Shown here: positions 39,023-51,049 of the stretch, piece after piece
How the letters are laid out: each line of letters starts with the position of its first letter
Numbering within the stretch: position 1 is the first letter of the stretch
Assembly: GCA_016292255.1 (NCBI GenBank)
Contig: JAEEZZ010000148.1
Location: 1 to 62,415 of the forward strand
Direction of reading: 5' to 3'
DNA: 62,415 bases
DNA from: Oscillospiraceae bacterium
GTDB taxonomy: Bacteria > Bacillota > Clostridia > Oscillospirales > Oscillospiraceae
Program-made: the position numbers and the translations under genes
Notes under the pieces: generated by a model
Databases searched by the model: none
The model's input: the letters and a program-made list of their open reading frames with translations, nothing else
Told to the model about the DNA's origin: nothing

Positions 39023-39051
39023 AAAAGTTTGTGGTTTCCGATTCTTTGGTC

Positions 39052-39080
39052 TGGACTTTTGGGAAAAAGTGTAGTATGTG
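39052..39080 (+). promoter_or_regulatory. Conserved promoter of A/B module, copy 1
   Basis: TGGACT, a 17-base spacer and TATGTG, followed by TTGTGTCG. The same arrangement precedes the relic (42682-42710, TGGACT and TGTTTG) and copy 2 (46331-46359, TGGACT and TATGTG), with identical 17-base spacing. Confidence 0.6.
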
Positions 39081-39117
39081 TTGTGTCGGAAACCTACAGA
39101 AAGAGGAGGCACGACAC

Positions 39118-39438
39118 ATGGCAAGAATATCCATCAGCGACCTGTACCTGGGCGAGGGCCCGGGCGAGAAGTACGGCGGGATCCTGAACACCGTCATGCA
39201 GGAGTTTTTCACCAGCGGCGTCCCTGAGGGATGCGACGAGAGAACGTGGATCGAGCTGCTGACCGTAAAGCAGACCTTTCTCACGGCAATGCAAATGGCA
39301 GAACTAGGCGACGAGGTATCGGAATTGACCGATGCTGCGTCGCCTTGTTGTATCAGCGAGACCGAAGAGCGTACCTGTAGCGGCGCACAGTGTGCGCCAC
39401 GCGCTCCTCTCGCAGGACGGGAGGAGGTGAGAAAATGA
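39118..39438 (+). CDS. Module gene A, copy 1 (unknown function)
   Basis: The 106-residue protein begins MARISISDLYLGEGPGEKYG, then helical WIELLTVKQTFLTAMQMAELG. From about residue 80 the frame runs through a REP palindrome (39382-39398), so the C-terminus (CSGAQCAPRAPL) is REP-encoded. AGAGGAGG precedes the ATG, and its stop overlaps gene B by ATGA. Copy 2 is at 46384-46740 and a relic is at 42735-42809. No motif is recognised. Confidence 0.65.
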   Translation: MARISISDLYLGEGPGEKYGGILNTVMQEFFTSGVPEGCDERTWIELLTVKQTFLTAMQMAELGDEVSELTDAASPCCISETEERTCSGAQCAPRAPLAGREEVRK

Positions 39439-39725
39439 GCATGCTGGAAGAGATCTGGACCTGCGGTCTGACCTATAAGGATCGGCCCGTAAAGTCGGGC
39501 TCTTCCTTGGAGCGGACGCTCTGCCTGTACGCGAAGAACCAGGACAAGCTGAAAGCGATGCTGAACGCAGAGGAGACGGAGCAGTACCAAAAAACGATGG
39601 ATGCCTTCAACGACGTCGTCAGCGTGACGGAAGAGGAAGCTTTCGAGTTAGGCTTCACGCTGGCCGCCAGGCTGATGATCGACGTGATGCGCTCGGCGGA
39701 GATTCCGTCCATCGACGATGACTGA
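39435..39725 (+). CDS. Module gene B, copy 1 (DUF6809-like)
   Basis: The 96-residue helical protein starts MSMLEEIWTCGLTYKDRPV and ends FELGFTLAARLMIDVM then a short acidic tail (PSIDDD). The layout matches DUF6809-type proteins of Clostridia: SxLEELxxG at the start and FxxGFxLxxRLMxDV at the end. GGGAGGAGGTG lies before the ATG. The function is unknown; the acidic tail is conserved in copy 2. Confidence 0.75.
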   Translation: MSMLEEIWTCGLTYKDRPVKSGSSLERTLCLYAKNQDKLKAMLNAEETEQYQKTMDAFNDVVSVTEEEAFELGFTLAARLMIDVMRSAEIPSIDDD

Positions 39726-41734: not shown

Positions 41735-41931
41735 GTTGCTCAACTCCTGTTTTTTTGTTTGCGGTATCTGTCAATGTATTTTAAACCAGCCGCTTTCGTT
41801 TGTCAAGGACAGGGCGGCGGAAACGGTGACAGAATAAGCAGGGTTAGAGCCCGAATAGACAGAACGCGTTGACAGCCATGCCGGCGGGTAATAAGATGAA
41901 CGCAGAAATATATTTTTTACAGGAGGCTGCC

Positions 41932-42355
41932 ATGAACCGGAACGACACCTGTTATCAGAACTACGTTAAAACCTTGAAGGAAGAGCTGCGGCCAGCCATG
42001 GGCTGCACGGAACCCATCGCAATCGCCTATGCTGCAGCCAAAGCCCGGGCTGTCCTTGGCGCGGTTCCCGAACGTCTGCTGATTGAGGTCAGCGGCAACA
42101 TCATCAAAAACGTCAAGAGCGTGGTGGTCCCCCATACCGGCGGACTGCGGGGGATCCCTGCCGCCGCTGCCGCGGGTATCGTGGGCGGCGACGCGGACGC
42201 GGAGCTGGAGGTTCTGTCCAAGGTAACGCCGGAGCAGATTGCAGCTATGCCTGCCTTCCTGGAGCAGACTCCCATTGAGGTGCGCTATGCCGAGACCGGC
42301 CACATCTTCGATATCATGGTTACGGTGTATCACGGCGAGGATACGGCATGTTGTA
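41932..42355 (+). pseudogene. Truncated cysteine desulfidase / UPF0597 (YhaM-like) gene
   Basis: The N-terminal about 141 residues are intact and conserved: LKEELRPAMGCTEPIAIAYA with a cluster-type Cys, SGNIIKNVKSVVVPHTGG and GIVGGDADAELEVLS. At about 42350 the family sequence stops and the first CRISPR repeat begins, without the remaining two thirds of the protein (normally about 430 residues). AGGAGG precedes ATG 41932. The remaining part was not found elsewhere in the window. It is either a real truncation or an assembly join. Confidence 0.75.
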
Positions 42356-42631
42356 ATACGCCCCACGCACGTGGGGATGAACCGGACGCTATCAGATACG
42401 TGATGGGGGAATATGGCATACGCCCCACGCACGTGGGGATGAACCGCCGGTTGCGGCCGATCTTCACTCCGTTCTGCCATACGCCCCACGCACGTGGGGA
42501 TGAACCGCGCAAATTACAAATTCTTTGAGGAACGAGAACATACGCCCCACGCACGTGGGGATGAACCGAACGACATTCAGATCACGCTGGCCGAGATCGA
42601 CCATACGCCCCACGCACGTGGGGATGAATAG
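42356..42631 (+). CRISPR. Five-repeat CRISPR array, type I-E-like repeats
   Basis: Five 29-base repeats start at 42356, 42418, 42479, 42540 and 42603. Each begins ATACGCC, has the palindromic arms CCCCACG and CGTGGGG around CA, and ends GATGAACCG. Spacers are 33, 32, 32 and 34 bases. The last repeat ends GAATAG, the usual degeneration at the trailer end, which puts the leader on the left. There is no AT-rich leader there, only the broken gene, and no cas gene in the window. The repeats resemble type I-E. Confidence 0.92.
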
Positions 42632-42734
42632 AAGTTCAAGTTTTGCGGAATGCTCCCCAAAAAGCAGGGAAAACTTTTGCCTGGACTTTTGTGAAAAAGT
42701 GTGGTGTTTGTTGTGTCGCAAGGAGGTGCGATAC

Positions 42735-42809
42735 ATGGCACGAATATCAATCAGCAATATGATGGACGTGATGCAGACCATGGAGCTCCCGTCCATCGAC
42801 GATGTCTGA
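42735..42809 (+). pseudogene. Internally deleted relic of the A/B module
   Basis: The first seven codons of gene A (MARISIS) run in frame, after one junction codon (Asn), into the last 16 codons of gene B (MMDVMQTMELPSIDDV). The conserved promoter lies at 42682-42710, and the 3' flank TCTGACGGTCAAGAA TTAGTTTGCTGTA matches copy 2. About 600 bases have been deleted compared with copy 2. Confidence 0.8.
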
Positions 42810-44872: not shown

Positions 44873-46030
44873 TCATAGGAGCCGCTTGCTCAGTTGTTCC
44901 GGGTCGAGCTCGTCCAGGTCGACCACCTCAATGTCCAGTTCAGCAGCACGATTTCTTGTGACGGTGCAGGCCCGCTCGGCGCTTACGATGATCGCCCTTG
45001 CTACCTCACCGCCGAAGCGGTCCCGCAGAATCGCCAATTCGTTGAGTGCTTCCGTGCGGATCTCGGAGGTCTTGCAGCTGATAAATACGGGCTTGATACC
45101 CCGGACCGCGACAACGTCGATCTCATTGCTGACGCCGTCCCGGGTGTTCTGCCCATCCCAGTCCACGACGACGCTGACGCGCACGTCTTGATATCTCCCG
45201 CTTTTGACGCATGCCTTCCAGACGTAGAGCTCCAGCACGCTGCCCACGTCGCGCAGCCAGGCGCGGATCTGCGCGTCGGCAAAGGAAAAGCGCACCTGCT
45301 CTCCCGGCAGCAGCTCCAGCTCCCGCAAAAATCCCAATTCAGACAGATCCCGCAACGCTTCCTCGTTGGCGGTGAGCATGCCCCGGTCTCCCTTGACCTG
45401 CCAGGGCGCGACAACAAAGAGCGAGAGCGGACCTTCTTTTGGCGTTGGGGAGACACGTTGCAGGTAGGAGACGATCCTCTGCCATTGATGCCGATACTTC
45501 AAAAACAGTTTGAAAAAGCCGTCGATCTTCCCGGTGTACTGCTCCAAAACCGTATTGTCGACCCTGCCTTGCCGGACCGAGCCGCCTGCCGCGGCAAAGC
45601 AGTCTGGGGCGGAGAGCAGCACGTCGCAGAGGACATTGTGTGCGAACGGCGCATTCTGGATGTCGAAAAAAGTGTTGCGCTTTCTGGAGTAAGTGAAAAC
45701 CGGAAGCGGCTGCTCGGCGCAGAGCAGGCCTCCTGCAAACAGCGCCGCATCCGAACCGCCCGAGATGTCTAAGGCGCAGTCTGGGTACTGCTGCACCACG
45801 GTCTCCAGCGCGCGCTTGACCGAAGCAGCGTTCAGCGTCGCCGTCTCCCGGAACAGAATCTGAGTCTCAAGCCCACGCTGCATGAAATAGTTCTTCAGCT
45901 TCTGCTGCAGGGCGCGGTTCTCTGAGATCTCCTTGTCGCAGAGAAAAACCGTCCGCTCCGGCCGAAACATCTCAGTTCCCAGTACATTCGCGATCGGACG
46001 CTTATCGAAGAGCTCAATCAAAGTCTGCAT
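44873..46030 (-). CDS. Card1-like CARF nuclease (DUF1887 family)
   Basis: The 385-residue protein has an N-terminal Rossmann-like CARF domain with LDISGGSDAALFAGG near residues 88-101, and a C-terminal PD-D/ExK-type nuclease: GSVLELYV near 263-270, NEIDVVAVRG near 302-310 and FISCKTSEI near 317-324, so the residues are Glu 267, Asp 305 and Lys 320. In DUF1887 proteins the CARF domain binds cyclic oligoadenylate made by type III CRISPR complexes and switches on DNA or RNA cutting. No Cas10 gene is in the window, so the trigger is unknown. GAGGAGGA precedes ATG 46030. Confidence 0.78.
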   Translation of the reverse strand: MQTLIELFDKRPIANVLGTEMFRPERTVFLCDKEISENRALQQKLKNYFMQRGLETQILFRETATLNAASVKRALETVVQQYPDCALDISGGSDAALFAGGLLCAEQPLPVFTYSRKRNTFFDIQNAPFAHNVLCDVLLSAPDCFAAAGGSVRQGRVDNTVLEQYTGKIDGFFKLFLKYRHQWQRIVSYLQRVSPTPKEGPLSLFVVAPWQVKGDRGMLTANEEALRDLSELGFLRELELLPGEQVRFSFADAQIRAWLRDVGSVLELYVWKACVKSGRYQDVRVSVVVDWDGQNTRDGVSNEIDVVAVRGIKPVFISCKTSEIRTEALNELAILRDRFGGEVARAIIVSAERACTVTRNRAAELDIEVVDLDELDPEQLSKRLL

Positions 46031-46383
46031 GGCATTTCCTCCTCTTGGGTACAGCATAGCGCACGATTCTCCGAAAAAAATCACTGAATAATGCAAATCC
46101 GCCCCGAATTCTTTTGCTCTTTCTGCTAATTGCGGTAGAGTACGGTAGCGATGAAGCCACAGCGTCTGCGGTTGAAATCATTGATCGGTACATAATCGAT
46201 TGCTTTGCTTTCCAGTAAAACGGAAACCTAGTATCGACATTATACCACAAAAGCGTTAACGATTCAACGATCTGCGGGAGGTAAATTCTGAACAGGTCTT
46301 TCAAGAGATGAAAAGTATAAATCTTTGGTCTGGACTTTCGACAGAAGATGTGATATGTGTTGTGTCGCAAGGAGGTGCGAAAC
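46031..46383. other. Noncoding region between Card1-like gene and module copy 2
   Basis: No convincing gene was seen. It holds the divergent control regions of the Card1-like gene and the module, with the conserved module promoter at 46331-46359. Confidence 0.6.
46331..46359 (+). promoter_or_regulatory. Conserved promoter of A/B module, copy 2
   Basis: TGGACT, 17 bases, TATGTG, then TTGTGTCGCAAGGAGGTGCG carrying the ribosome site of gene A. Confidence 0.6.
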
Positions 46384-46740
46384 ATGGCACGGATATCAAT
46401 CAGCGACCTGTACCGGGGCGAGGGCCCGGGCGAGAAGTACGGCGGAATTCTGAACGCCGTGGTCCGGGATGTTTCCAACAAAGGCACCCCGGAAGGGTAC
46501 GACGAGAGAACGTGGATAGAGCTGATGATCGTAAAGCACACGTTTCTTACGGCAATGAAAATGGCAGAACAAGGCGACGTTGTTTCGGAACTGACCGAAG
46601 CGGCGTCGCCTTTCTGCACGGCAGAGCAAGGAGCACAGCTATGCAGTAGTGCACACAAGAGCGCCACGATACCACCCGGTAGCGACGCACAGTGTGCGCC
46701 ACATCCTCAAAACGGGACGAGAGAGGAGGTGGAGAAATGA
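46384..46740 (+). CDS. Module gene A, copy 2 (unknown function)
   Basis: The 118-residue protein shares the MARISISDLY start, GEGPGEKYGGILN and the central DERTWIEL with copy 1, but residues 29-36 differ (RDVSNKGT against QEFFTSGV). The C-terminal part from about 80 contains the REP palindrome at 46684-46700, as in copy 1 but longer. Its stop overlaps gene B by ATGA. AAGGAGGTG precedes ATG. Confidence 0.65.
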   Translation: MARISISDLYRGEGPGEKYGGILNAVVRDVSNKGTPEGYDERTWIELMIVKHTFLTAMKMAEQGDVVSELTEAASPFCTAEQGAQLCSSAHKSATIPPGSDAQCAPHPQNGTREEVEK

Positions 46741-47027
46741 GCATGCTGGAAGAGCTGTGGTTGGGCGGCCTGGACTACCAGGGGCGGCCTGTGAAGAAGG
46801 GTTGCGCCATGGAGCGCAAGATGTGTCTCTACGCCAGGAACGCGGAAAAGATGAAGGGAATGCTGACCGGTCCTCAAGCGGAGCAGTACGAGAAAACCAT
46901 CGATGCCTTCAACGACGTTCTCGGGCAGTCCGAGATCGAAGCCTACGAGTTCGGCTTCACCCTGGCCGTCCGGTTGATGATGGACGTCATGCAGACCATG
47001 GAGCTCCCGTCCATCGACGATGTCTGA
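46737..47027 (+). CDS. Module gene B, copy 2 (DUF6809-like)
   Basis: The 96-residue protein has the same length and ends as copy 1: MSMLEELWLGGLDYQGRPV at the start and FTLAVRLMMDVM then PSIDDV at the end. About half of the residues are identical to copy 1. GAGAGGAGGTGG precedes the start. Confidence 0.75.
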   Translation: MSMLEELWLGGLDYQGRPVKKGCAMERKMCLYARNAEKMKGMLTGPQAEQYEKTIDAFNDVLGQSEIEAYEFGFTLAVRLMMDVMQTMELPSIDDV

Positions 47028-48209: not shown

Positions 48210-48500
48210 GGCTTGGCGTCGTAGACGCTTTTCAAGCCGGTTCACAATCGCCGGCAACGCCGACGTTGTAAGGGTTTTTCGGGCTTTTCGACTGTTACCA
48301 AAAGTGGGGTCATAAACAACGTGTAAATCAAGAAATGGAGTCACAATGCCCGTTTTCCCAGTGTTTTCCACGAGTTTTTTGGAGTCATGCATGTTATCCG
48401 GCGCTTTTATACGAAATGATAACTTTTTGTGTCTGGACGGATTGACGCTGGATATCTGCAAAGGCTTGTGATAGTTTGTGTGGCAGGAGGTGAAAGGATA
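48160..48500. other. Noncoding region upstream of the recombinases
   Basis: No gene was seen. It has three GGRGTCAY octamers (48306-48313, 48337-48344 and 48381-48388), repeated once more after the recombinases at 51114-51121; they could be recombinase arm sites. Confidence 0.5.
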
Positions 48501-49622
48501 ATGGCAAAGCGAAGAGCGAAGGGCGAGGGCTGTGTCTGCAAGCGGGCCGACGGACGCTGGCAGGGTCGCGTCATCATCGGTCGAAAGGAAAACGGTTCTC
48601 CCATCTATAAATTCGTTCTGGCAAAGACGCAGAAGGAGCTCATGCCGAAGATGCGTGCAGTGCTGGAGCAGTACGACGGCGTCCATCTCACAGTGGACAG
48701 CAATCTGACCCTGGCCGAATGGCTGAAGCGCTGGCTCAAGGAGTACGCCGAAACCTGTCTCCGCCCATCTACGATCCGGAACTACCGGCACATCTGCAAC
48801 AACTATCTGATCCCGGCGCTGGGAAACAAGCAGCTCCGCAAGCTCACGACGCCGATGATCCAGGCAGTCTACAATTCTCTGCAAACGAAGCGCGGTCTCT
48901 CCAACGAAACCGTGCGCGGTGTCCACATGATGCTCCACGAAGCGCTGGAAGCTGCAGTCCGCGGGCAGATGCTCCCGTCCAATCCCACCAACGGGACCAC
49001 GATCCCGAAGAAAGAATACGCGCAGAAACAGATTCTGAACAACGAACAGCTGGATCGCTTTCTGGAAATAATCAAAACGGAACCGGCCTGGTACGATTTC
49101 TTCTACACGGAAATCACCACCGGGCTTCGTCGCGGCGAGATCTGCGGCCTGCGCTGGGAGGACCTGGACGAGATCACGGGGCAGCTCCACATCCGCAGAA
49201 GCGTCCGGACTACGGCATCGGGCTATGAGGTGGGCGAAACGAAAACGAACCGGGGCAAGCGCACGATCCTTCTGCCTGCCAGCACGCTCAGTCTGCTGGT
49301 CAAACGGCACAGAGATTCATCCAGCCCGTGGATCTTCCACGATCCCAAGAACCCGGCGCAGCCCATCTCCACCAACGCAGCCTACCAAAAGCTGAAGGAG
49401 CTGCTGAAGAAGGCGGAGCTACCATCCATCCGCTTCCATGATCTTCGTCACACCTTCGCTACCCACGCCCTGCAAAGCGGCGTGGACGCCAAAACGCTCT
49501 CCGGCATCCTGGGCCACACCGACGCCAGCTTCACCCTGGACACCTACACCCACGTCACGACAGACATGCAGAAGAACGCTTCCAATATCATCGGAAACTT
49601 CATGGAGGAGGTGCTGCCATGA
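48501..49622 (+). CDS. Tyrosine recombinase/integrase 1
   Basis: The 373-residue enzyme has an N-terminal arm-binding domain (GEGCVCKRADGRWQGRVIIG), a SAM-like core-binding domain and the catalytic domain with Arg in TGLRRGEI near residue 215, HDLRHTF near 312 and GHTDASFTLDTYTHV with the nucleophile Tyr. AGGAGGTGAAAG precedes ATG 48501; the frame extends 24 codons further upstream. Its stop overlaps integrase 2 by ATGA. Confidence 0.94.
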   Translation: MAKRRAKGEGCVCKRADGRWQGRVIIGRKENGSPIYKFVLAKTQKELMPKMRAVLEQYDGVHLTVDSNLTLAEWLKRWLKEYAETCLRPSTIRNYRHICNNYLIPALGNKQLRKLTTPMIQAVYNSLQTKRGLSNETVRGVHMMLHEALEAAVRGQMLPSNPTNGTTIPKKEYAQKQILNNEQLDRFLEIIKTEPAWYDFFYTEITTGLRRGEICGLRWEDLDEITGQLHIRRSVRTTASGYEVGETKTNRGKRTILLPASTLSLLVKRHRDSSSPWIFHDPKNPAQPISTNAAYQKLKELLKKAELPSIRFHDLRHTFATHALQSGVDAKTLSGILGHTDASFTLDTYTHVTTDMQKNASNIIGNFMEEVLP

Positions 49623-51049
49623 GCAAGCGTAGAAAGAAAGGTGAAGGCACGCTGGTCTTCCGGGAGGACGGACGCTGGGAGGGCCGCGTCGTGGTCGGCT
49701 ACGACGAAAACGGTCTTCCGAAAACAAAAAGCGTCCTGGCCCGCACGAAAGCGGAGTGCCAGGAACGCTTGGACGCGCTGATCGCGGAGCAGGATCAGGC
49801 GGCGGGTAAACTGACGAAGCCATGCTCCTCGGGCATGCCCTTTGGAGAGTGGATCAGCTATTGGTACGAGAACTTCGTCAAGCCCGCCCTGCGACCCACC
49901 ACGCAAATGGGCTACGAGAACAGCATCTACAAGCACATCATTCCCGTACTGGGCAAGGTCCCGCTGGCGGAGCTAAATCAAGAATGCCTGCAAAAGTTCT
50001 ATGCCCAGCTCAAGAAAAGTGGACGCCTGCGGGAAACGGAGCACTTCGGCCCCGGCCTCTCGGATCGTTCCGTGCGCGCGTGCCACGACGTGATCCGCAT
50101 GGCCATGGACCGGGCCGTCACGGAAAAGCTCCTGCGCAGCAATCCCGCCGACGCCTGCAAGCTGCCGCCCAAGCGCGGAAAGGAGATGCAGGTTCTGCAC
50201 CGGGACGAGATCCAGCGCTTCCTGATCCAGGCGAGGGAGGAGGGCTTCTACGAGATGGCGGTGCTTGAGCTGTCCACCGGTATGCGCCGGGGCGAGATCT
50301 GCGCCTTGCAGTGGAACGATCTGGATTTCACCACCGGAGAGCTTCGGATCTGCCGTCAGGTCTATCGCGCCGACGGGCAGCTCACGGTCTCCCAGCCCAA
50401 GACCAGGACCTCGCTGCGCACCGTTATCCTTCCACCTGCGGTTCTTTCGATTCTGAAAGCGAAAAAGGAACGAAGCAGCTCCCAATGGATCTTCCCGTCA
50501 CCCCTGGACGATGCCGTCCCGTGCTCACCCGACGCGATCCGCAAAAAGTTGAAACGGATTCTGGAGCACGCGGAGTGCAAAAGCGTCCGATTCCATGATC
50601 TGCGTCACACCTTCGCCACGGAAGCCCTGGAGCACGGCATGGACGTGAAAACTCTGTCGGCCATCATCGGCCACGTGAATTCCGCCACCACGCTGAACGT
50701 GTACAGCCACGTGACAGACCAAATGCGGAAGCAGGCGGCGCAGAAGATCGACGCCGGGATAGGGACCTGTGAGGCACGAGAAGGCGATTTGTCGCATCTT
50801 CCGTCCCAGGAGGGGAATGGACCCGTCCGGAAGCCCTTCGAGCCCTATAAGGGCTCCCGCCGCAAACCCGGCACCGGCTGCCTGCATCAGATCAACGACC
50901 ACCTCTGGGAAGGAAAGTACGCCCCCCGCGGCCCCGACGGCAAACGCATTTGCAAAAATGTCTATGCTCCGACAAAAGAGGAATGCGAAGAAAAGCTGCA
51001 AGCAATGATTGCGGAAATCAATAACAGTGCACAACCTGCCCAGAAATAA
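49619..51049 (+). CDS. Tyrosine recombinase/integrase 2 with a second arm domain
   Basis: The 476-residue enzyme has catalytic residues in TGMRRGEI near 222, HDLRHTF near 330 and GHVNSATTLNVYSHV near 352-366. It has an arm-binding domain at the N-terminus (GEGTLVFREDGRWEGRVVVG) and about 60 extra residues at the C-terminus (about 418-470) that again look like an arm-binding domain: HQINDHLWEGKYAPRGPDGK and APTKEECEEKLQAM. This second copy is unusual. Tandem recombinases may act as a pair. Confidence 0.9.
   Translation: MSKRRKKGEGTLVFREDGRWEGRVVVGYDENGLPKTKSVLARTKAECQERLDALIAEQDQAAGKLTKPCSSGMPFGEWISYWYENFVKPALRPTTQMGYENSIYKHIIPVLGKVPLAELNQECLQKFYAQLKKSGRLRETEHFGPGLSDRSVRACHDVIRMAMDRAVTEKLLRSNPADACKLPPKRGKEMQVLHRDEIQRFLIQAREEGFYEMAVLELSTGMRRGEICALQWNDLDFTTGELRICRQVYRADGQLTVSQPKTRTSLRTVILPPAVLSILKAKKERSSSQWIFPSPLDDAVPCSPDAIRKKLKRILEHAECKSVRFHDLRHTFATEALEHGMDVKTLSAIIGHVNSATTLNVYSHVTDQMRKQAAQKIDAGIGTCEAREGDLSHLPSQEGNGPVRKPFEPYKGSRRKPGTGCLHQINDHLWEGKYAPRGPDGKRICKNVYAPTKEECEEKLQAMIAEINNSAQPAQK

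Follow-up and report, generated by a model that had tools for sequence, protein, structure and literature searches.

An orphan Card1/Can2-like CARF nuclease with an acidic sensor pocket in an Oscillospiraceae bacterium

The CARF nuclease P0001, encoded in a window of 62,415 nucleotides (the whole stretch of DNA analysed) from an Oscillospiraceae bacterium, is most likely a stand-alone, ligand-gated nuclease that, judging from its pocket residues, does not read cyclic oligoadenylate (cOA). Its branch is mostly found without type III CRISPR and has a sensor without the Lys of the cOA site, and P0001 itself departs from cA4-activated type III effectors in two defining respects: it has neither the basic CARF residue nor the linkage to a type III locus. 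We estimate a probability of about 62% that P0001 is an orphan Card1/Can2-like nuclease, acting as a single gene and gated by a ligand other than cOA, possibly one of the SAM type. By comparison with Can2, two P0001 chains would pair via their CARF domains, a ligand fitting the pocket of D9, D88 and D94 would rearrange the nuclease domains, and these would cut nucleic acid with a metal at E267, D305, K320 and E331. CARF domains are mostly treated as cOA readers, and this charge-reversed clade, mostly Cas10-less or placed in SAM-AMP-type loci, provides a concrete test of whether CARF domains can read SAM-type signals. The acidic clade also gives access to a long-standing problem, the function of orphan CARF nucleases such as VC1899.

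P0001 belongs by sequence to the Crf4/CARF4 family (Card1/Can2, PF09002), which agrees with the preliminary description of a DUF1887-type protein with a CARF domain. Residues 263–376 match PF09002 (Card1_endonuc) with an E-value of 3.9e-13 and 49.6 bits against a cut-off of 26.4, and this is the sole PF09002 match of the genome. The PADLOC model CARF4--CARF_PDDEXK covers residues 1–384 (best E 1.7e-47). With a profile of orthologues, both the CARF and the nuclease domains align with Can2 (7bdv), residues 13–106 of which fall over the CARF domain of P0001. The nearest PDB sequences are VC1899 (1xmx), Can2 and the DUF1887 protein 8bao, the best match being VC1899 (E 8.6e-4, and 2.3e-8 with the profile). 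An AF2 model built from two sequences had a mean pLDDT of 39.6, too poor for placing D305, K320 and E331. Like Can2/Card1, represented by SthCan2, P0001 has a CARF domain followed by a Card1-type nuclease, a similar length and aligned equivalents of D305 and K320; unlike them, it has Asp94 for Lys99, keeps none of the four cA4 contacts, carries SxK...E rather than ExK and lies outside a type III locus. The features are listed in Table 1.

Table 1. Positions in the window of the P0001 gene, its domains and key residues, and the nearby CRISPR array
Feature	Position	Strand	Remarks
P0001, CARF + PD-D/ExK-type nuclease gene	44873..46030	-	ATG start, ORF of 385 aa
N-terminal CARF domain	45581..46030	-	about residues 1-150, limit approximate; PADLOC CARF4, Can2 alignment
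Card1-like endonuclease domain	44903..45244	-	PF09002
D88-I-S-G-G-S-D94, CARF strand-4 motif	45749..45769	-	Asp94 for the hallmark Lys/Arg; Can2 alignment
Glu267, conserved, start of nuclease core	45230..45232	-	invariant in orthologues
Asp305, presumed metal-binding, NEID motif	45116..45118	-	invariant in orthologues
S318-C319-K320, SxK instead of ExK	45071..45079	-	invariant in aligned orthologues
Glu331, proposed stand-in for the missing Glu of ExK	45038..45040	-	invariant in aligned orthologues
CRISPR array of 5 repeats	42352..42632	+	presumably I-E-like by repeat sequence

The CARF hallmark is a basic residue just past strand 4, in the pattern [DN]x[ST]xxx[RK], and CARF families without this Lys or Arg were proposed to bind distinct ligands (PMC4012209). 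In P0001 the basic residue, which is characteristic of cA4-activated Card1/Can2 effectors, is absent from the corresponding D88-I-S-G-G-S-D94. The cA4 contacts that Can2 shares with Can1 have been reported as Ser19, Thr42, Lys99 and Tyr118 (PMC7969007). In a hand-counted profile alignment, D9 corresponds to Ser19, D32 to Thr42 and D94 to Lys99, while T113 of P0001 sits in a column that holds Tyr in 6 of 13 type III-linked relatives; all four contacts are thus replaced. All 29 full-length orthologues have Asp at position 9; at position 94, 28 have Asp and one Glu, and at position 32 Pro is found in 21 and Asp in three. At position 94 the 13 type III-linked relatives have Lys (9), Thr (1) or Glu (3), and 18 other relatives from genomes without RAMPs have Asp or Glu (13), Pro (4) or Arg (1), so that Lys94 is present in 9/13 type III-linked relatives versus 0/47 others. 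These residue counts exclude partial rows (L034, L106, L117 and L136), long fusions or degenerate CARF domains (L114, L131, L133, L134 and L135), and L118, a second match of the same gene as L112. From these residues we infer that cOA is not the ligand of P0001 and that the ligand is cationic or of the SAM type.

Orphan PF09002 proteins as such are already known from VC1899, and it was noted in 2014 that every CARF family has genes unlinked to CRISPR (PMC4012209). VC1899 of Vibrio cholerae, the founding orphan, was described as a weak RNase that is not regulated by cA4 and has acidic pocket residues (PMC7969007). It resembles P0001 as an orphan CARF nuclease with an acidic pocket, but it has Arg at the Lys position and an ECK motif, whereas an acidic residue is conserved at that position in the broad clade of P0001. 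A literature search of partial coverage found no description of a conserved acidic-pocket CARF clade, nor of a CARF nuclease in SAM-AMP loci. A further orphan Card1-like clade without RAMPs (L100, L102, L105 and L109, from four genomes, family f87) has the pocket motif D-x-SNG-x-P in place of GGTK.

The preliminary description had also assigned a complete-looking PD-D/ExK nuclease with Glu267, Asp305 and Lys320. The three residues were placed correctly and are unchanged across the 28 aligned orthologues, but the presumed ExK is in fact Ser-Cys-Lys, followed by Glu331 further on, a departure from the canonical motif; S318-C-K320 and Glu331 are likewise invariant in these copies. Ser318 occurs in 59 of 60 alignment rows, and Lys320 accompanies it in 57 of the 59. 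Glu331 is present in 55 of the Ser318 rows, the remaining four having Lys331 and a Glu at 328, and the 331 place is without Glu in all seven ExK relatives (L112, L114, L134, L135, VC1899, Can2 and 8bao). A permuted PD...K...D/E site, in which the acid has moved past the Lys, has been described in CCGG-family restriction enzymes (PMC6344858). Since the motif of P0001 resembles this site, its nuclease is probably complete, as a permuted variant E267/D305/SxK320/E331 with Glu331 as the moved acid; the likeness to Cfr10I and NgoMIV is an analogy of the active site, their domain architecture being unlike that of P0001. SxK is common among type III-linked relatives too, and therefore does not mark the orphans. 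Proteins of about 1400 aa with a C-terminal Card1-like endonuclease domain were also encountered (L131, L133, L134 and L135), two of the four with the ECK form.

P0001 is a maintained gene under purifying selection and without a recurrent neighbour. Its dN/dS (Nei-Gojobori) is 0.13 against the copy of G359 and 0.16 against that of G258, for which Ks is near 1; the values for the CARF part alone, 0.07 and 0.12, respectively, are the lowest. P0001 is the only gene on its strand here: a GGDEF gene on one side converges with it, and a pair made up of a small ORF and a DUF6809 gene diverges from it on the other. At 29 loci, 105 neighbour ORFs were collected (at most two per side, excluding those above 900 aa and those truncated at a contig end), some of which may be spurious because they were called mechanically; each Pfam family was limited to 3 of them at most, and each PADLOC family to a single one. 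Among these neighbours are threonine/serine exporters, MgtE, HypA and SHMT.

Homologues were found by protein search in 48 of 400 genomes of the family, and an orthologue in 30, including the source genome, that is, in 29 of the 399 others. The orthologues span 15 genera with 47–90% identity to P0001. The 90%-identical one (L094) comes from the MAG Oscillospiraceae bacterium RGIG552 from dairy-cattle duodenum and was the only relative in one scan of named genomes. No viral relative was confirmed in two viral-contig scans, and P0001 had no match in plasmid or phage records.

Holding the gene is not associated with Cas10. The Cas10 palm family PF22335 matches 24 of the 400 genomes, several near the cut-off, where GGDEF proteins may score, and the source genome is the only one of the 30 orthologue holders with a match (1/30 versus 23/370, Fisher p = 1). 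RAMPs were detected in one of 31 genomes searched (the 30 holders and G021), again the source genome, and in 0/15 of the high-quality ones among the 31 (at least 90% complete and at most 5% contamination), most genomes being incomplete drafts. The genomes of the 90%- and 78%-identical orthologues are among those without detected RAMPs, and the acidic-pocket genome G007, also without RAMPs, has a marginal PF22335 match of 27.7 bits. Across the phylum, PF09002 was found in 20 of 398 genomes, including the source genome, and 13 of the other 19 have RAMPs; in all 13 the two share a contig, within 6 kb in 12 and at 18 kb in one. In two of the family's more distant holders, G372 and G294, the Card1-like protein and the RAMPs are encoded on separate contigs, so that an unlinked pair is not unique to the source genome.

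The preliminary description reported no Cas10 in the window and a CRISPR array near the gene, and both statements hold: the only PF22335 match in the window is weak (E 0.03) and falls in the GGDEF protein, and the array has five repeats. By its repeat sequence the array is presumably I-E-like; it has no match among the Rfam CRISPR families. An ORF at 41869-42528 that matches no Pfam family continues directly into the CRISPR repeats, as though cut off by the array. The statement that the protein occurs without type III CRISPR is true of the window, but elsewhere in the genome (G000; 2.94 Mb in 168 contigs, 86% complete) contig C52 carries a type III-D locus, together with the genome's only PF22335 match over the cut-off.

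The C52 locus (L035, L093) encodes Cas10d, a Csx10-like Cas5, two Cas7, Csx19, RT-Cas1 and Cas2, together with two arrays. Its Cas10d is palm-bearing (PADLOC E 3.2e-91), Csx19 exceeds its NCBIfam cut-off, and the RT-Cas1 fusion has 633 aa; Cas6 was not identified among the scanned ORFs of C52. The arrays are nearly alike in repeat, with an Rfam CRISPR-DR2 match below the gathering score. C52 also encodes Csx20, a 718-aa CARF-HEPN protein and a 213-aa CARF protein. Csx20 has been reported to break down cA4, and cA3 at higher enzyme concentration (PMC12409355). Because a degrader of cA4 accompanies the locus, the III-D system probably signals by cOA. It is unlikely that C52 entered the bin by contamination: its tetranucleotide correlation with the window is 0.959, whereas shorter stretches taken from 18 other genomes do not exceed 0.911, although a repetitive stretch of the source genome itself, on contig C102, reaches only 0.896. 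At C102:8000-20000 (L036) paralogues about 540 aa long stand in a row and appear as a lineage-specific expansion; one or more of them has a GGDEF-type end.

Of the Cas10 and CD-NTase genes for which a whole-genome search had been proposed, Cas10 was thus found, as Cas10d, while the CD-NTase family SMODS (PF18144) matched 0/30 holders and 1/20 non-holders. With mCpol (PF18182) also at 0/30 holders, these two cyclase families lend no support to P0001 being a CBASS or Panoptes effector. According to the preliminary description, a type III locus in the same genome with a matching operon would make P0001 an ordinary displaced accessory; such a locus exists, and a matching operon was not found. Since the III-D system has CARF proteins of its own, the nuclease lies on another contig and 29 of the 30 holder genomes have no detected Cas10 or RAMPs, P0001 is unlikely to be an accessory of the C52 system.

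The acidic proteins form one clade (31 rows, support 100/99) in a tree that holds 15 of the 29 full-length P0001-clade rows, and in a quick tree with all 29 the acidic clade has 43 rows, 41 of them from RAMP-less genomes. The three type III-linked proteins with Glu94, those of G716, G803 and G969, are one sub-clade (support 100/100) and come from a single bacterial family. G716 came from the phylum draw; G803 and G969 were retrieved when the 189 genomes of the order to which G716 belongs were searched for related proteins. Their proteins are 65% and 46% identical to that of G716, respectively. The same search yielded a broken nuclease remnant in G800 and, in G854 (E 1e-7), a nuclease part of an 876-aa frame; both genomes are without CorA. 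In G716 (L138) the gene order is CARF nuclease, CorA, Cmr1, Cas10, Cmr3, Cmr4, Cmr6, a 187-aa DEDD-like protein and Cas6. Support for calling this protein DEDD-like is weak (PADLOC DEDDh E 0.007): the G716 protein has no Pfam match and its G803 copy no PDB match, while a homologue also adjoins CorA in G498. G803 (L145) has the same operon, flanked by arrays and with an additional small ORF in the place of Cmr5. In G969 (L146 with L152) the nuclease is the last gene of a Cmr operon, directly after Cas6, and the end of a second contig carries CorA and a 128-aa protein matching the SAM-AMP lyase 9gad (E 2.3e-14); the last 87 bases of this contig are the first 87 of the Cmr contig, as expected of neighbouring contigs. 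The CorA-linked relative had no plasmid match.

III-B loci with CorA and NrN, DEDD or lyase have been described as the signature of SAM-AMP signalling (PMC10600005, PMC12255297, PMC11229360). The type III-linked relatives found in the P0001 clade belong to genomes with such loci, whereas in 29 of the 30 genomes with a P0001 orthologue Cas10 was not detected. CorA, searched with the G716 protein, is confined to two of the 398 genomes of the phylum sample, namely G716 and G498. It is present in the genomes of 3/3 acidic versus 0/10 non-acidic type III-linked members (p = 0.003, a value that ignores both shared descent and the way the trio was found). The trio amounts to about one event, because it is one sub-clade, two members were found via the first and Asp occupies position 9 in only one, the others having Ser. 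CorA is absent from 10 of 10 checked acidic-clade genomes without linked type III, six of which are orthologue holders. The source genome has no CorA either, and P0001 is therefore not placed in a SAM-AMP-effector locus, as its relatives are in one operon in G716 and G803 and on two contigs in G969. That one Cas10 should make both SAM-AMP and cA6 was considered hard to envisage in PMC11229360; together with the CorA operon, this doubt makes the CARF nuclease of these loci a candidate reader of SAM-AMP. The cationic part of SAM would be well matched by an acidic residue where the phosphate-binding Lys is otherwise found. Alternatively, the CARF nuclease and CorA of one locus might read different products.

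A bolder interpretation, which we regard as tentative and rather doubtful, is that the acidic-pocket Crf4 nucleases are a new class of CARF sensor for SAM-AMP and that the orphan branch has moved to a related ligand. Here the Asp or Glu replacing Lys would meet the positively charged methionine/sulfonium part of SAM-AMP, and the acidic Crf4 nuclease would serve as a second, nuclease effector in CorA loci. The orphans, P0001 included, would read a related adenosyl-sulfonium ligand made without Cas10 and would cut nucleic acid when this metabolite changes, for example during infection. The suggestion of the preliminary description that the protein answers another nucleotide signal gains indirect support from the Asp or Glu at position 94 in 29/29 orthologues and from the relatives in CorA genomes; a CD-NTase product as that signal is unsupported.

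The changed pocket might also mean decay, P0001 being a degenerate relic without ligand or regulated activity, "cast adrift" as was suggested for VC1899 (PMC7969007). The loss of all four Can1-conserved cA4 contacts of Can2 fits such a history, but the gene is kept in 30 of 400 genomes and 15 genera, the nuclease residues are invariant in 28 aligned copies, positions 9 and 94 show conservation of their acidic residues and not a scattered pattern, and the dN/dS of 0.13-0.16 is lowest in the CARF domain; a relic is accordingly improbable. If instead P0001 were a displaced accessory, cOA from the III-D Cas10 would activate it in trans. The palm-bearing Cas10d in the same genome makes such cross-talk possible, inter-locus signalling has been considered possible for effector-less loci (PMC11229360), and G372 and G294 also pair a Card1-like protein with RAMPs across contigs. 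However, the III-D system, for which cOA is the likely messenger, has its own Csx20, CARF-HEPN and CARF proteins, P0001 is without the Lys of the cOA site, its 90%- and 78%-identical orthologues persist where no RAMPs were detected, and the separation seen here departs from the 13/13 shared contigs of the phylum, so that activation in trans is quite improbable. A stand-alone nuclease triggered by RNA damage, its CARF domain reading an RNA end or tRNA fragment like RtcR, is very improbable. The divergent CARF domain of RtcR was found to bind tRNA fragments with a cyclic phosphate end (PMC7790460), and RtcR CARF domains are mostly without Lys or Arg (PMC4012209); yet RNA binding is not what an acidic pocket would readily suggest, and the 25 commonest of the 102 neighbour Pfam families include no rtc family. 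An orphan nuclease gated by a ligand other than cOA is the reading we prefer.

In the surroundings of P0001, a small gene pair occurs twice in the window, at 39031-39725 and 46357-47027, and its second member is a DUF6809 gene where scanned (at 46692). An apparent fused remnant of the pair lies at 42525-42809, and the copies flank the array as well as the CARF nuclease. In addition, a tandem pair of recombinases of the phage integrase family is present at 48429-51049, about 2.4 kb from the nuclease gene.
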